From Porpolomopsis calyptriformis (taxonomy: Eukaryota > Basidiomycota > Agaricomycetes > Agaricales > Hygrophoraceae): DNA of 64,000 bases. A program made the translations under genes and the position numbers. The notes beneath the pieces are model-generated. The model was not told the origin of the DNA. It saw only the letters and a list, made by a program, of their open reading frames with translations, and did not search any database. Below, piece after piece: positions 10,057 through 22,894 of the stretch (its first letter is position 1; the number at the start of each line of letters is the position of its first letter). The stretch spans positions 186,001-250,000 of the forward strand of contig OX621165.1 in assembly GCA_951640195.1 (NCBI GenBank), written 5' to 3'.

Positions 10057-10830
10057 ATGTCCACTCGCGACGAAATCCAAGCTCAACTCGCACAGCTCCA
10101 AGTCCTGCTTGAAAATGAAGAACAACGAGAGCGCAAGGAAGCGGAGGAGGCCTGGAGGGCAGAGGAAGAGCGTCAGTTGGCAGAGGAATGACGAGCGGCC
10201 AGAAAGGTGGCCAAGGCTGCAAAAAGGGAGGCAGCAAGGAGGGCAAAGGAGGCGGCTCAAATAGCGGAGCCAGCAGAGCAGGCGGAGATGGCGGCGGAGG
10301 AAAGATCAGGGCAAGAGGCCTTGATCAGATGACCGTAAGTACTTTCTTTTTATCCGCTTTATTCCGGAGTTGACCAGAGTTCGTTTAGGAGGGCTCCGTG
10401 CGAGCCTTGCATCAAGAAAGGGAGCGCAGAGGGGTGTGTGTGGCCGACCGGACAGGGGAAGGCCCGGAGTTGTACCACCTGCCAACGGGTGAAGGCCAAA
10501 TGCTGGGTTGGGGAAGAACCAGCAAAAAGGAAATGCATCCGGAGTACCACGGAGGAACCGGAGCACGGAGGAAAAAGGTGGCAGGGAAATGCGGAGTCGT
10601 TGGAGATGGCGATTTTGAGGGAGGAGCTGCAAGGAGTTCAGGGGGAGATGAGGAAGATGAGGATGGAGATGAAGAGAATGAGGGAGTCCATGGAGAGGAC
10701 TGAGGAGTTGTTAGATGGGGAGTATAAGGATAGTGGAGAAAGCGGAGAAAGTTCGGAGGTGTCGGAGGAATCGGAGATGTCGGAGGAGGAAATGCCCATA
10801 AGGGATGTAGAAATAGTCCCTTTGGAATAG
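10057..10830 (+). pseudogene. Antisense cysteine-rich coiled-coil gene inside inner chromovirus
   Basis: Plus-strand gene between the pol end and the 3' LTR. Exons 10057-10334 and 10389-10830 join in frame across a 54-nt GTAAGT..TTTAG intron. The 239-codon frame starts MSTRDEIQAQLAQLQ, continues as a Glu/Arg/Ala-rich coiled coil, then has a compact cysteine cluster (CEPC, C, CTTC, C with spacing 2-8-12-2-6). This resembles a Zn2Cys6-like DNA-binding fold. A second coiled coil and an acidic Ser/Glu tail follow. Two in-frame TGA codons (45 and 92) have neighbours suggesting former CGA. AATAAA at 10859 serves as polyadenylation signal and abuts the convergent pol end. Similar proteins recur in mushroom genomes from memory, but I cannot name the family. 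Confidence 0.65.
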
Positions 10831-15835: not shown

Positions 15836-16090
15836 TGTTATGTCCGAAGTTTCGGAGTTGAATTCGGAGATCGGAAATGGATAAACGACGGGACTTAGTC
15901 GATATTCTGTCTACAGATACAGGAAAAAACGCAGTACTTATATACCTGCTAGATAATTATATCTGAGACATAGTGACGACAGAGGATGTCATAAGTAAGA
16001 AACATGTGAAAAGTACAGAGTGTTCGGAGTTGTCGGAGTAATCGGAGTTCTTCGGAATTCATTGGAGTTCATTGGAACTGGGATGTAACA
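15836..16090 (-). repeat. Inner chromovirus 5' LTR
   Basis: 255 bp. On the minus strand TATATAAG (15944-15937) lies 32 nt before AGACAGAATAT (15912-15902), the predicted transcript start. Nine differences from the left LTR, every one at a CpG. Confidence 0.9.
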
Positions 16091-16095
16091 GTCGT

Positions 16096-16272
16096 AACGA
16101 CTATGGATGAGTCATGTAGATAAGGAGAGTGATGGTAGACTAAATATAGATATGGCTTGGTCACCTTCTATTACTAAGTGGAGCTTGGGTGGCTAAGCGG
16201 TTATTGATGTAAACTGTCTGATGTAAATAGAGATAGACGAGCAAAGGAAAAAGAAAAAATATATCTCTGACA
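16096..16272 (-). repeat. Outer chromovirus 3' LTR, part 2
   Basis: Remaining 177 bp of the left LTR, ending ATCTCTGACA. One C/T difference from the right LTR. A purine-rich tract (GGAGGTGAA on the minus strand) precedes it in element orientation, as expected for plus-strand priming. Confidence 0.9.
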
Positions 16273-16551: not shown

Positions 16552-17244
16552 CTAGGTCACGCCATCATAAACTGGGGGTTGAAGCAGGTGTCCATCTGGG
16601 TCAAACCAGTGGTAATGGCCATCCAACTCCCGGGCACGTCGCAACCAAGTTTCAGCCAGCTCCCTACACATCACAGCATTCTCCTCCAGGTCAAGGATCC
16701 TTTCGTACTTGGCATCCATCATCGAGCGATAGCCATTCCGGGCAGCATAGAGTCGGTCAGCAACGCGATGGATGCAGTGTGAGATGGGGTCTTCGGGGAT
16801 AGTGGGGGTGGTGACGTCAGATTCGACCTGGTCCGGTATAACCATCAAAAGTTGGTGCCCAACTTGGTATGCCTCCAGCCAATCTTCAAGTTGATTCTTC
16901 TTGTCGTCAAAGTCGCTATCCTTGTCGAACGTGTACCAGTGATGGTCATAGTTAAGTTCGCATTGACGTGCTCCAGAGATAAAAGGGACGTAGGTTTCGG
17001 GGCACCCAGATAGGTGCTCGACCTTGGCAAAGGGGAGCCCTCGGTAGTTACGATTTCGTCCCAGCTTGTCAATAGTATCGGTACATCATTTCGGCTTCTT
17101 GAACCGTCGGGTAACCAAGACACTGTCGGACGAGGAAGAGGAGGAAGAAGAATTGGGGGGGAGGTTGGAGGTAGAAGCAGTGGGGTTCCCTCGGGGTGGA
17201 TGCCTCCCAGTCGACTTGCGGGCATAAAGAACTTGGCGGGGCAT
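16552..17244 (-). pseudogene. Extra 3' ORF of outer chromovirus with H3-tail-like N terminus
   Basis: Lies between the chromodomain and the 3' LTR, where envelope or accessory genes sit in some LTR elements. It has 231 codons with a single in-frame TGA at codon 53 (17088-17086), in the context AAA-TGA-TGT, where CGA is the likely ancestor. The first 20 residues contain ARKSTG followed by a PR two residues later. This corresponds to histone H3 residues 7-12 and 16-17. A run of eight Ser and an acidic, Tyr/Trp-rich domain follow, with no transmembrane segment or signal peptide, so it is not an envelope protein. I know of no named family for the rest. The histone-mimic role is inference. Confidence 0.65.
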
Positions 17245-17358: not shown

Positions 17359-20300
17359 TTAAGTTGCCACTTGAATAGACTTTTCATAGTTCATCAAGAT
17401 GTCTTTTGCGTGCTTGAGGTTCCATTGTGGTTCCCAGGTAGCTGCCTCTATTGGGTAGCCTTTCCACTTGATTAGATATTGTCGGTTTCGTTTTCCTGGG
17501 GTGTGATTCAAGATACGTTCCACTTCATACTCAGGCTCTCCTTCGATCACATCCGGAGGTGGTTGGAGATTGTCATCTTCCTCAATGGGGGGATGGAGAT
17601 TGAGATTCTCCTCTAGAGCTTTGAGTAGCGAAACGTGAAACACGGGGTGGATCCTCCATGACAGCGGTAGCTTTAGTTGGTAAGCCACAGGTGATACTTG
17701 TTTTAGAATTATAAAAGGTCTGAGCCGGCGGACATCCAGTTTCTTCGCGGGCCGGCCAGTTTTCAAATTCTTGGCATCAAGCCAGACCCTTTGTCCTTCA
17801 TAAAACGTGGGTTCCTTTTGACGTTTTCAATTGGCATAGAGCTTCATTGAGTTAGTGGTCTTTTGAAGAGACTCTTCAGCGTTCTCTCTAGCTCTAGTAA
17901 GCTGCACGTAAAACTCATTGGCATCAGGATTTGAGGTTTGGGTTGGAACTGATAAGGGGGTGTGAGGATGTCGACCATATTCAAGCTAGAAGGGGGATTG
18001 GTGAGTGGAGGAATGTTCTCGGTTGTTATAAGCAAACTCCGCCGGGGCTAACCAGTCTTTCCAATCGTCTTGCATGAAGTTAGTGTAGAGCCATACATAC
18101 TGCTCTAACTCTTGATTGGTTCGTTCGGTTTGTCCATCTGTTTGGGGGTGATAGGCGGTAGAAAGCCCAGAAGTGGTTCCTAGGAGTTCGTTCAATGATG
18201 TAGCAAACTTCGATGAGAATTGGGTTCCTCGATCGGTAATGATCTTCTCTGGCCATCCATGGTGCTTCCAAACATGTTCTTGAAATAGCGCAGCAGTTCC
18301 TTTAGCAGACAGGTTTCCAGTTGTTGGGATGAAGTGAGCCCGTTTGGTGAATCTGTCTACCACAACTAGAATGGCATCGAATCCTTTTGAGTTAGGGAGT
18401 TCCACGATAAGATCAGCAGTGATCTGTTGCCACGGTTTAGTAGGAGGGGGTAACGGTTGGAGAAGTCCAGTGGGTTTCTGTGGATAAACCTTGGTCTGTT
18501 GACAAGCAAGGCAGGACTTCATGTAATTGGTGATATCTTGTGGGGCACCTTCCCATGTGTAATTACGGAGGAGCAGTTCCTTCGTCTTCTCAATGCTGGG
18601 ATGGCCACTAGTGGGTGTGTCGTGGGTCAATCGAATAATTTCCATGCGCAAAGATACGTCCTTTGGCACAACTATATGATCTCCAGCATTGCGCACAATG
18701 CCATCTACGTGGGTGTATCCGGAAGAGGGATCTTCAATTTTGGCCATGATCTCGAGGGGTAGGGGGGAATGAAAGCAAAGCTTGGATAAAAAGTTGGGGG
18801 ACGATAAACTGATGATTGCATTGATGAAAAGCGCATTGACAAAAAGTTCTTTTGGCAGAAGGACCTTGTCCTCCACCTCCTCATAAGACTCCGGGTAATG
18901 ATCTGGACGTTTGGAGAGTCCATCAGCCTTATTCTTGATTCTAGGCTGGTAGCTGATTCTGAACCAAAAGTGAGCTAAAAACTCAGACCATCTAGCCTGG
19001 CATCTAGAGAGTTGATGACTGGTCATGAAGTATTGGAGGGACTGGTTGTCAGTCTTGATCATAATGGGTTGCCGTGTCCCTTGTAGGAGGTATCTCCATT
19101 CATTCAAGGCAGATATGATGGCTAAAAGCTCTTGGTCATGGGTGGGGTAATTTCATTCAGCTGGGAGGAGGGTCTTGGAGTAGAAGCCAATGGGATGCTA
19201 ATCTTCTTCATCATTCTCTTTCTGGGTTAAGACTGCACCCAGTGCAACACCAGAGGCATCCGTCTCCAGAAGGTAAGGAAGATTTGGCTTTGGGGTCCTC
19301 AAAACAGGAGCAGAGGTAAGTGCATTCTTGAGGGTATCAAAAGCACATTGTTGCCTAGGGGTCCAAATCCATTCTTGATCCATTCGTAAGAGCTCATTAA
19401 GAGGATGAGCAATCAGGGAGTAATCCTTGATAAACCTTCGCCAAAAGTTGGCAGTGCCAAGGAAGGATTGAAGGTCTCGTTTCTTCTGGGGGATAGGCCA
19501 GGTTCTGATCGCCTCAACCTTCTTGGGGTTAATAGCAATGTGGCCTTTAGAGATCATCATCCCCAGATAAATCACTTCCTTTTTCTCGAACTGGTACTTG
19601 ACAGGTTTGCAGGACAATTGATTCTTCTCCATGATCTCTAGAGTTTGTTCCGTCCAATAGGTGAGTTCAGTAAGGTCCTTTCCCATGATCAAGATATCAT
19701 CAATATAGATGTGGACCTGTTTGGAATCGATAACCTCTTTGAAGAGAACGTCGATCATTCATTGAAAGGAGGCAGGTGAGTTTCGCATTCCAAAGAACAT
19801 GACAGTGGGCTCGAACAGCCCTCGTCGAGTGTTGAAGGCTCCTTTCCATTTGTCTCCTTCTTTGATACGAATATTGTTAAAGCCCCATCAGATATCCATA
19901 ACTGTGAACAGTTCCGCTTCTGATAACTTGGTTTGTTGAATAATCTCAGAGATGAGAGGTAAGGGATAGGCATCTGGGATTGTGTGAGCATTCAGATAGC
20001 GATAGTCTTGGATTGGACGCAGTCCAGCATCTTGTCCTTGGGCATTAACTTCTTCACCTTTGGCAGCAAAGAAGAACGAGGCAGCCTGTTTGGAGTTCGA
20101 TCATTGTATTCATCCACTTGCAAGTTGTTCCTCCAGGAATTCATTCAGCTTTCCTTGTTCGTACTCAGTGAGTTTGTACACCTTTCCGATCTTGGGTCTA
20201 AAGGTAGGTTCGAGATCAATCGCATGGTCAAATTCTGGTCGTCGTGGGGGAAGTTCATCGAAGGTAGTCTTCATAAACACCTTCCAGTGCCTCCAGTATT

Positions 20301-20830
20301 TCTTCGGCACATACTTCTTCATATCTTCCTCCACAGTAGTGGGTCTTGCATGGTCTCCCAGTGAGACCAATCTGATAATCTTGGCATAGGAGTCGCTATT
20401 CAACGTAGAGCCTACTCGCGACACTATCACTCCAGCCTGAGAAGTCTTGGTTGGGGCCACAGTCTGACGTGAAGTCAGTGTTCCAGCCTTCCAGTCAACC
20501 AGGGGATCGTTACATTTGAGCCACGGGTAGCTGAGGATAACCTGTATCATATCTCCTAAATTTGTCACTTCCAAATGGGTTCATTCCCTAGGAAAATCCG
20601 GCATCTCCATCCACAGGTCTACAGCATATTTGATGGGACCTCCTCGGTTGTCTGTCCCATCTGCATTCCACATGGGGATTGGTCCTTCCAATCAATAAAA
20701 AGGGATATCGCGCTCCTACACGAAATTCCAGTTTATAAAGCATCCAGAGGCGCTAGAGTCTATCAATGCACTGGCAGCAATTCGTCTACCAGTGTCTGTG
20801 GTTTCCAACTAAAGGGGTATGGTTAAAGCT
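17359..20830 (-). pseudogene. Outer chromovirus pol with chromodomain
   Basis: In order: an aspartic protease motif LIDSSASG near 20770 (the usual DSG is DSS here), then an RT with YIDDILIMGKD (about 19690). RNase H follows (LETDASGVALGAVL, TDNQSLQYF), then an integrase with an H2C2 zinc finger (HPSIEKTKEL, CLACQQ). The core has D (TADLIVELP), D (TDRGTQFSSKF) and an E-containing AYHPQTDGQTERTNQELEQ block. A C-terminal chromodomain has YEVERILNH, QYLIKWKGYP and TWEPQWNL (about 17530-17380). Premature stops include MDI*WGF, SFQ*MID, AE*NYP and YAN*KRQ, all TGA where Arg is usual, plus TAG in EED*HP and SPF*LE. Confidence 0.85.
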
Positions 20831-21009
20831 TCTTCGCTCGAATCAAGTGCACCAAGAATTTGGGAAATAGATTGCATAGGGGTAGTGGTACACATAGAAA
20901 AGGAGTCTGCAATACACGAGCTATTGTCCGGACTGTTCAAAAACCCTGTTTCTCCAAAGCTCTCTTCAGCTCTTCTTTCCTCCTAGGCTCCCAGTTGACG
21001 ATACCACAC

Positions 21010-22355
21010 TTCTCGAAGTCTTAACAAGAATCTTCATTGGAGTTAACCTCCTCAATCGAGGCTGAGGTCTCCAGAACTCGAATGTTTCTCCCTCAACCAG
21101 GTTTCTTTCCTCCACGACCTCTAGCTGCTGGGGTGAAGGAGCGGCTTCCAGAACCAGAAGTACTCATCCTAGGAGCATTGGGACAAGAACTGGCAAAGTG
21201 GCCAAATCGTCCACAGTTGAAACATGCTCCTTTGGGAATTCCTCCTAGTGAAGCAGGCTTCTCTTCTTGTTTGATCCTGGGGGCAGCAGGGTTGGAATAG
21301 GTGGAGGAACCAGCAAGTGGTCCTTGTCGGTAGGGGGTGTTGGTGATGCGAGTGTTGTGAGTTTGGGGCTTAGAGGATGTTCTAGCTAGAAATTCTCAAT
21401 GTCGTCTGTCAAGTTCAGCAGCATGAGACTGCCATTCAAAGAGGGTGGTGGGTTGATGATCTGAAAGGTAGATCTGTTGCAAAAGGGAGGGGTTGAGTCC
21501 GTCTTTATACAAAGTCACCAAAGCTTCTTGTCCGTATCCAGTATCATGGGCCCATCGATTGAAATTAATGTTGTACTCCTCTGCGCTCTTGTTGAACTGC
21601 TTGATGTCCTTGATCTTCAGTTGAGCAGTTGACTTTGGGTCCAAGTCTCCAAAGTCTCGGGTGAGGGCTTGTTCAAAGACAGCCCAATCAGCACCAACCC
21701 AGTTCAACATTGTGTAAGCATCTACTTGACGCTCAGCCCATGGTTCTGCATTTCCTCCAATCATAAATGATAAGGCATAGATAATCTTGTCAGCCTCTGA
21801 GATTCCTGGTCATCCTAAATGATTCAACTTCACTTGACGCAGGAAGTTGCAGAGCTTGGTGGGATCACCAGAGAATTCGTCAGGAGGGTTCATCTTGATC
21901 TTAGCGGGGGCAGGGGCAGGGGCAGGGACAGGGGCAGGGGCAGGGACAGGTTGGGGGAATACTGGGGGTGCTTGGAAGGGTTGGGGAAATGGCCCAAGAG
22001 GGGCAGGGACAGGTTGGGGGCCTATGAGGTTAGCCATCAATACTTGAAGTTGTTGTTCGATTCTATGACTCGCTTGCGCTTGGTCTTGTTGGACCTGCAG
22101 CAATTGTTGATAATCCTGCTTCATGATCTCGAAGGCTACACATGGATCTTCTTCTTCATCCTCATCATTGTCCTCAGCTCGACCTTTCCCTTTTGAGTGA
22201 GAGGGACCCGCTTGTTCTTCTTCTTCTTCTTCTTGTTCTTGGGCAGGGTCAACCATCTCGTCATGGGAGGGAGCTGGGACAGGAGGGAGAGAGCCTTCCT
22301 GGGAGAGAGGGATAGCAGGGTGAGGGATAGTGGATGATGAATGAGTCAAAACCAT
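21010..22355 (-). pseudogene. Outer chromovirus gag
   Basis: Acidic N terminus, coiled-coil-like Gln-rich stretch, a PAPAPV low-complexity repeat (plus strand GGGGCA repeats at 21908-21950), then a capsid domain. The nucleocapsid knuckle CFNCGRFGHFASSC lies at about 21215-21255. Stops: a TGA near 21811 (HLG*PGI), a TGA near 21396 (RRH*EF) and others after the knuckle. The two named stops fit former CGA Arg codons. Confidence 0.8.
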
Positions 22356-22535: not shown

Positions 22536-22894
22536 TGTTAGACGGCAGTCTAGGGTTAATCGCAAGGTTTTACTTCAGGCTCTGGGTGTAGGGTTTTAAA
22601 GGGTTGGAAGACTACTGATTGGGGTGTTAACGAAAGAAACAGACTTATCCTAAGTCTATCTACTGCTAGCTTTATATACTAGCCAAGTATGAGTCATGCT
22701 AACCACATGTGAGTCGTAACGACTATGGATGAGTCATGTAGATAAGGAGAGTGATGGTAGACTAAATATAGATATGGCTTGGTCACCTTCTATTACTAAG
22801 TGGAGCTTGGGTGGCTAAGCGGTTATTGATGTAAACTGTCTGATGTAAATAGAGATAGACGAGTAAAGGAAAAAGAAAAAATATATCTCTGACA
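22536..22894 (-). repeat. Outer chromovirus 5' LTR
   Basis: Complete 359-bp LTR (TGTTAG..CTGACA on the plus strand). On the minus strand TATATAAA (22678-22671) lies 32 nt before AAGTCTGTTTCT (22646-22635), the predicted transcript start. It differs from the left LTR by about seven transitions, including a CG versus TA pair at the ACGAAA/ATAAAA site. Confidence 0.9.

Follow-up and report, generated by a model that had tools for sequence, protein, structure and literature searches.

The locus described here raises the question of why a retrotransposon should carry, directly behind its pol gene, a protein whose N-terminus reads like the tail of histone H3 around lysine 9. It lies in a window of 64,000 nucleotides (the whole stretch of DNA analysed), within a genome of 33.5 Mb and 17 contigs; our whole-family surveys cover this genome alone. 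An accessory ORF (17244-16552, minus strand) opens with MPRQVLYARKSTGRHPPR directly downstream of the pol of a chromodomain element, here called family A, and its N-terminus in the window is MPRQVLYARKSTGRHPPRG. Reading the DNA confirmed the initial annotation, which had placed after the chromodomain an ORF whose first residues include ARKSTG and then PR: the window copy reads MPRQVLYARKSTGRHPPRGNPTAST..., ends in a stop codon and, also as annotated, is interrupted by a single TGA at codon 53. The features of the element are as follows.

22712..22894, minus strand: 5' LTR of the family A element, a direct repeat with 16090-16272 (1 difference in 183)
21810..22355, minus strand: probable first part of gag (181 aa), assigned only from its place at the element's 5' end
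17362..20946, minus strand: pol of family A, no longer open (at least 12 stops in frame), recognised by tblastn from the open lineage B pol (59% identity, 1206 aa)
17380..17529, minus strand: chromodomain at the integrase C-terminus, with the three aromatic cage positions Y/W/Y present (PF00385; aligned to the CDYL, Oxpecker and CBX5 chromodomains)
16552..17244, minus strand: accessory ORF, interrupted here by the codon 53 TGA; sister copies that are open have 230 codons
17191..17244, minus strand: H3-like N-terminal tail, residues 1-18
17206..17223, minus strand: ARKSTG, equal to H3 7-12 (protein residues 8-13); the mimic lysine is residue 10 with Met and 9 without
17077..17109, minus strand: basic patch (RRFKKPKRRTD in open copies) after a Ser-rich linker, NLS-like by eye, with a putative function
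16555..17076, minus strand: C-terminal region without an assigned fold (no Pfam family over cut-off, no PDB match)
16090..16272, minus strand: 3' LTR, a direct repeat that pairs with 22712..22894

The accessory ORF begins 114 bases on from the pol stop (17361-17359). The 183-nt repeats and the pol homology identify family A as an LTR-flanked chromovirus (a chromodomain Ty3/gypsy element) whose gag is assigned by position only, and PF00385 recognised the chromodomain at the integrase C-terminus in A (E 7.7e-17) and in the lineage B described below (E 9.4e-15). The accessory ORF is part of a chromodomain LTR retrotransposon and its H3K9-like tail is N-terminal, as had been claimed. Against the 12 or more stops in pol, the LTRs differ at 1 of 183 bases, and by eye the 12 flanking bases contain no target-site duplication that matches; perhaps copies have recombined, or the LTRs escaped the decay that broke pol. 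A second chromodomain element lies nearby in the window, its pol ending at about 10880, and an ORF with a cysteine-rich stretch (10339-10830, plus strand) is found just past that end.

The initiator Met is expected to be removed before Pro. Once it is removed, the protein numbering coincides with that of H3: R2, A7, R8, K9, S10, T11, G12, P16 and R17 are shared, giving nine identities in 17 positions (computed on the N-terminus of a sister copy; the same nine are seen by eye in the window copy). ARKSTG and PR match H3 as the initial annotation had it, and its count of 8 of 12 is corrected to 8 of 11 positions over H3 7-17. The tail motif in A is YARKSTGRRPPR, and the natural copy L012 has the tail MPREVRYARKSTGRRPPRG. 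Among the 974 ATG starts in the window that are followed by 25 open codons, a single one shows an exact run of six residues with H3 1-20, the next best run being four (three starts). Shuffling residues 1-20 of one family A copy produced a run of six once in 20000 trials and nine identities in none of them. A pattern coding for ARKSTG occurs at 125 places genome-wide, versus 14 for the reversed pattern. Neither the A nor the B accessory protein matched a histone family in Pfam, and the A profile had no match at E 1 against all PDB sequences; we therefore rejected a histone-fold gene as the setting of the motif. A single-sequence structure model of the A C-terminal region was uninformative (pLDDT 39).

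For family A, a protein search with the accessory query gave 125 genome matches (98 near full-length, by count), and a DNA search gave 40 scored copies, all over the full 693 bases and, apart from the window itself, 94-96% identical. Among the 100 of 125 ARKSTG pattern places listed, 40 belong to family A, 55 to family B, three to host H3 genes and two are degenerate places that do not encode ARKSTG (assigned by eye from coordinates); only C3:203207 of those listed falls within the window. From loci L001-L060, the best-scoring ones, we read 36 distinct A copies, leaving out L056 for its wrong frame offset. Exact ARKSTG is present in 24 of them and the lysine is kept in all 36. The initial annotation had held that intact homologues retaining the tail would speak for mimicry; 14 of the 36 copies are open over 230 codons, exact ARKSTG being present in 9/14 and the lysine in 14/14. 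Burial of the motif by an upstream in-frame start, named there as grounds for refutation, was ruled out: in all 36 A copies the frame is closed by a stop exactly 13 codons before the start, and no Met intervenes, and such a start was seen in 1/26 copies of B (L114, Met four codons upstream; 16-24 codons seen). Nine N-termini of old A copies (65-81% identity with the query) were also read; by eye, six still show a tail in decayed form, and all six keep the lysine.

The tail is also found in a second lineage. Ten pattern places outside family A were read and all ten encode another protein, which begins with MPAERSHQTARKSTGGRPPRAPRMSTGGQPPRRAPPPLAST... in most and with MPAERIQHHSQTARKSTGGRPPR in one. 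The accessory ORF of this lineage B begins MPAERSHQTARKSTGGRPPR in the natural copy L074, matching 12 of 16 H3 residues; its tail follows the pattern [Q]TARKSTG[G/R]RPPR and is succeeded by a coiled-coil-like stretch. In one 9.9-kb region the B accessory ORF lies 124 bases after an open pol of 1273 codons with a terminal chromodomain. Between A and B, pol shows 59% identity across 1206 aa, so that 41% of positions differ. When profiles of the accessory proteins were compared, A 6-50 aligned with B 8-57 (tail and linker) only, with a probability of 41% and E 0.0003, and no kinship was detectable between their C-terminal parts. Because only tail and linker can be aligned, no part of these proteins, which have otherwise diverged or been replaced, is better conserved than the tail. 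In a search of all PDB sequences with the B profile, the top 24 rows were H3 tail peptides; the best E, 0.035, is not significant by itself. The best 60 of 126 rows included three phosphoglycerate mutases and one Cse4, and in these 60 the matches to H3 and Cse4 chains were confined to the first 36 B positions. The genome pattern counts, the survey of ATG starts and these PDB rows place the H3K9 likeness beyond chance. Decayed tails are readable by eye in 9 of 11 N-termini of old B copies (51-75% identical), with the lysine kept in all readable ones; in the remaining old A and B copies the N-terminus is, by eye, lost or replaced.

Some B loci have unusual arrangements. At L083:4355-5089 (minus strand) the accessory frame is open for 52 codons upstream of the Met, with no Met between, and reaches into the last pol codons in another frame; a frameshift there could yield an integrase-accessory fusion. 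In one B subfamily (L073, L120 and L133; C1:520945, C4:419828, C5:732639, C9:1164918 and C11:520666) the matched accessory part is stop-free in five copies, and the upstream pol end of L133, the one read, is decayed. A second ORF follows about 1.8 kb downstream in that subfamily, at a near-constant distance and with a similar segment, without ARKSTG in the two read (L104, L105). The subfamily is perhaps a non-autonomous element with the accessory gene at its core.

Selection on the tail was assessed in 26 B copies, of which 10 had been found through the motif and 16 chosen by their C-terminal part; as the first ten were selected on the motif, the remaining 16 form the fair set. Changes were counted by parsimony on a tree, on internal branches and with CpG-type changes set aside. 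The frameshifted copies L014 and L023 were excluded from the pN/pS and branch counts; L056 (wrong offset) was excluded from the branch counts but distorts the A pN/pS values, so that we use the branch counts for A. Codons vary in the B tail with the residues unchanged in 26/26 copies: K12 is AAG in 18 and AAA in 8, S13 is TCT in 14, TCC in 6 and TCA in 6, and T9 and T14 are ACT or ACC. The tail (QTARKSTGGRPPR) shows 0 non-synonymous and 9 synonymous changes in the 26 copies, versus 68 and 106 in the other five segments together (Fisher P 0.028). In the fair set, where exact ARKSTG is present in 9 copies and the lysine in 16/16, the tail has 1 non-synonymous and 8 synonymous changes versus 52 and 72 elsewhere (Fisher P 0.086). 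Set against a neutral expectation from site counts (28% of sites synonymous, with transition bias outside the model), the B tail gave P 1.2e-5 for 26 copies and 2.8e-4 for 16. Its non-CpG pN/pS (0.05-0.08) is the lowest among the five segments compared. With CpG-type changes included the ratio becomes 0.32 (16 copies) or 0.23 (26 copies), above linker and coil (0.17-0.21); we read these CpG-type changes as decay after insertion.

Family A by itself was rejected as proof of selection, since its counts do not show it: the tail is not conserved in excess of the rest (0 non-synonymous to 2 synonymous internal changes), and of the 28 non-synonymous changes counted in residues 8-18 (34 copies), 25 are CpG-type. 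In the comparison of tail and adjacent linker suggested by the initial annotation, the tail is the better conserved in B with CpG-type changes set aside, but neither in B when they are included nor in A. The mimic lysine in its context is kept in 36/36 A copies and 26/26 B copies, and the B tail departs from neutrality. As a second, related lineage has an even better copy of H3, the likeness looks selected, judged from these sequences. The mimicry itself, N-terminal, present in two lineages and constrained in one, is well supported on the same grounds; its purpose we infer.

A third lineage, C, delimits the distribution of the tail. Its pol is 56% identical to that of B and 53.5% to that of A (about 466 residues), and its accessory ORF, in the same position, starts with MPATRSTRSPSPQ or MPATRSPSPQ, without ARKSTG in five of five loci (L107, L110, L113, L131, L132). 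Homologues with the same C-terminal domain and no motif had been named as evidence against mimicry. Lineage C goes part of the way, with an ORF in the same position that lacks the motif, but in the one C locus compared the C-terminal part showed no detectable kinship to that of B, and the objection does not strictly apply. Elements of this type can do without the tail, since C combines a chromodomain with a motif-free accessory ORF. The motif was found in none of seven stretches read after chromodomain matches, three of which are lineage C, so that the tail is a property of A and B and not of chromoviruses at large. At L108 and L109 the frame continues for about 150 residues past the chromodomain (MDNFFGID...), in L109 with a stop inside. 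L111 has no accessory ORF after its chromodomain, and L112 resembles a host chromodomain helicase by eye.

Beyond this genome, single-sequence protein searches with A and with B returned no homologue at E 0.01. The B profile, which includes the motif, gave one match among 5.8 billion proteins, P0001 (186 aa, from a 4079-base contig; E 1.3e-5). This protein carries QTARKSTG(G/R)RPP three times, as QTARKSTGGRPP at the N-terminus, QTARKSTGRRPP in the middle and QTARKSTGGRPPR near the end. In the profile comparison with P0001 only 18 columns of one repeat align, and P0001 matched no Pfam family. It may come from the same species as the window, since the pattern places listed above are 100 of the 125. 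The residues RPP after STG(G/R), where H3 has KAP, are common to A, B and all three P0001 repeats, which points to one module rather than three accidents. No confirmed relative was found in viral_contigs searched with A2 and P0001 or in genome_contigs searched with P0001. At the DNA level, viral_contigs had no stretch fitting the TARKSTGxRPP pattern and the prokaryotic genome_contigs had five, one with a stop inside and four in open frames of 37-86 codons; only one of these four spells TARKSTGRRPP, and all were treated as chance rather than as relatives.

Chromodomains bind H3 5-10 (QTARKS) and hold methylated K9 in an aromatic cage. The A and B chromodomains match those of CDYL, Oxpecker, HP1, CBX and MPP8, with Y, W and Y in the alignments at the positions that we take to form the cage. 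In the host genome a Pre-SET and a SET stretch lie on the same strand, separated by 400 bases; their exons match Clr4 and other H3K9 enzymes, which are also the best matches of the Pre-SET part. The genome also has cytosine-methylase-like stretches, in line with the CpG decay. A chromo-shadow (HP1) match was not found in the genome, and the controls for this search gave no match either. Family A has VLY or VRY before ARKS in place of Gln/Thr, which should weaken chromodomain binding. Given cage-bearing chromodomains and a host gene of the H3K9 type, the leading idea is a methylated tail read by a chromodomain, as in the ATF7IP-MPP8 pair, where a methylated H3K9 mimic in ATF7IP is read by the MPP8 chromodomain (PMC9768651; also PMC6172828; both in excerpt). 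The N-terminus of the A and B accessory proteins, encoded directly after pol, would imitate H3 around lysine 9; a host Clr4/DIM-5-like enzyme would methylate the mimic lysine, and a chromodomain, either that of the element's own integrase or that of host HP1, would then read it. The rest of the accessory protein would link that chromodomain to the intasome or to heterochromatin. We tentatively consider this, a host-methylated H3K9-mimic tail read by the element chromodomain or HP1, to be the best reading.

Ranked second after it is a role as silencing decoy or inhibitor, which we consider unlikely. Here the tail would occupy the H3K9 methyltransferase or HP1 and lower the H3K9 methylation of new copies. 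The B protein has a second repeat, RMSTGGQPPR, that fits RxSTGGxxPR (7 of 10 positions as in H3 8-17) with M at the K9 place and S following, each in 26/26 copies, and such a lysine-to-methionine repeat could trap the enzyme as H3K9M does. In fission yeast H3K9M traps Clr4 (PMC5030085, in excerpt), and EZHIP inhibits PRC2 by a K27M-like mechanism (PMC6513997, in excerpt); the likeness to B is the M at the K9 place. The B repeat differs from these inhibitors in that the preceding Arg is kept in 13/26 copies and is H in the other 13/26, and inhibition by B is putative. Internal non-CpG changes in the repeat are 0 non-synonymous to 3 synonymous in the fair 16 copies, consistent with a trap, but 5 to 4 in all 26. 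P0001, with its three motifs, looks multivalent, as a decoy might be. Against this, the lysine-to-methionine repeat is absent from family A, and the copies are heavily CpG-decayed, as would be expected if they had been methylated.

The tail might instead imitate H3 for other ends, through other H3-tail readers, kinases, acetyltransferases, importins or chaperones, or as a basic tail that simply binds nucleic acid. H3 tails have many binding factors, the match goes beyond K9 to STGG and PR, and in A a basic patch is next to it; however, neither H3K4 nor K14 is retained (K14-A15 is R-P in B) while the ARKS core is, and a merely basic tail would not hold S and T amid synonymous variation. We therefore regard such uses as improbable next to methylation of the tail and its reading by a chromodomain.

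The origin of the tail bears on the last alternative. All three host H3 genes read depart from H3 just after ARKSTGG, as at an intron, and from their sequence they appear to contain introns; the B tails are close to these genes at the DNA level, even at synonymous sites. This border and this closeness make capture from an H3 gene or transcript possible, and the PR beyond the intron-like border, together with RPP, indicates that a bare H3 exon was not simply taken. The ARKSTG serine codon in B (L073-L082; TCT, TCA, TCC) has the same three forms as in the host H3 genes L061, L062 and L064, and L078 differs from one host H3 gene at 1 of 27 bases; the shared serine codons reflect either chance or exchange with H3 genes. 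That the N-terminus is a relic, captured once from an H3 transcript or arisen by chance and persisting only through recent amplification (scored A copies are 94-96% identical to the window copy), is the least probable of the explanations, as only tail and linker remain alignable in the accessory proteins of lineages with such divergent pol, B shows synonymous change without amino-acid change, and RPP in place of KAP is common to A, B and P0001.

Viral mimics such as influenza NS1 and SARS-CoV-2 ORF8 resemble the tail in being parasite proteins with a short H3-like segment. The NS1 segment is C-terminal and that of ORF8 internal, and neither comes from a chromodomain retrotransposon. To our knowledge, histone mimicry has so far come from host regulators and viruses. 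The automethylation sites of G9a/GLP and the ATF7IP-MPP8 system share with the tail an H3K9-like motif in a non-histone protein. However, these are motifs of host regulators, whereas here a transposon protein bears the motif at its extreme N-terminus, in register with H3 in the case of A, and the match is longer (QTARKSTGG in B). Our literature search, with most subscription journals outside its coverage, found no account of a histone-like transposon accessory protein. The means by which chromodomain integrases locate heterochromatin or escape it are, as far as we know, understood only in part.

Fungal chromoviruses, those of basidiomycetes included, have an additional ORF, marked as of unknown function in the Figure 3 legend of PMC2864245 (in excerpt). 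These chromodomain Gypsy elements resemble A and B in having such an ORF, and differ in that section 5 of that source gives no histone likeness for it. With a chromodomain and an imitation of its ligand in one element, peptide methylation and peptide binding can be tested cheaply and directly. It is conceivable, although we hold it with some doubt, that the accessory protein is a dedicated pseudo-histone-tail protein which, methylated by the host enzyme, acts as a portable heterochromatin address, or in B as an enzyme trap through the lysine-to-methionine repeat, and that [Q]TARKSTG[G/R]RPP, seen here in two lineages and in triplicate in P0001, is a recurring transposon tool. The tail may help the element deal with host silencing. 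If true, this would be histone mimicry encoded by a transposon, with selfish DNA exploiting the very mark that silences it.
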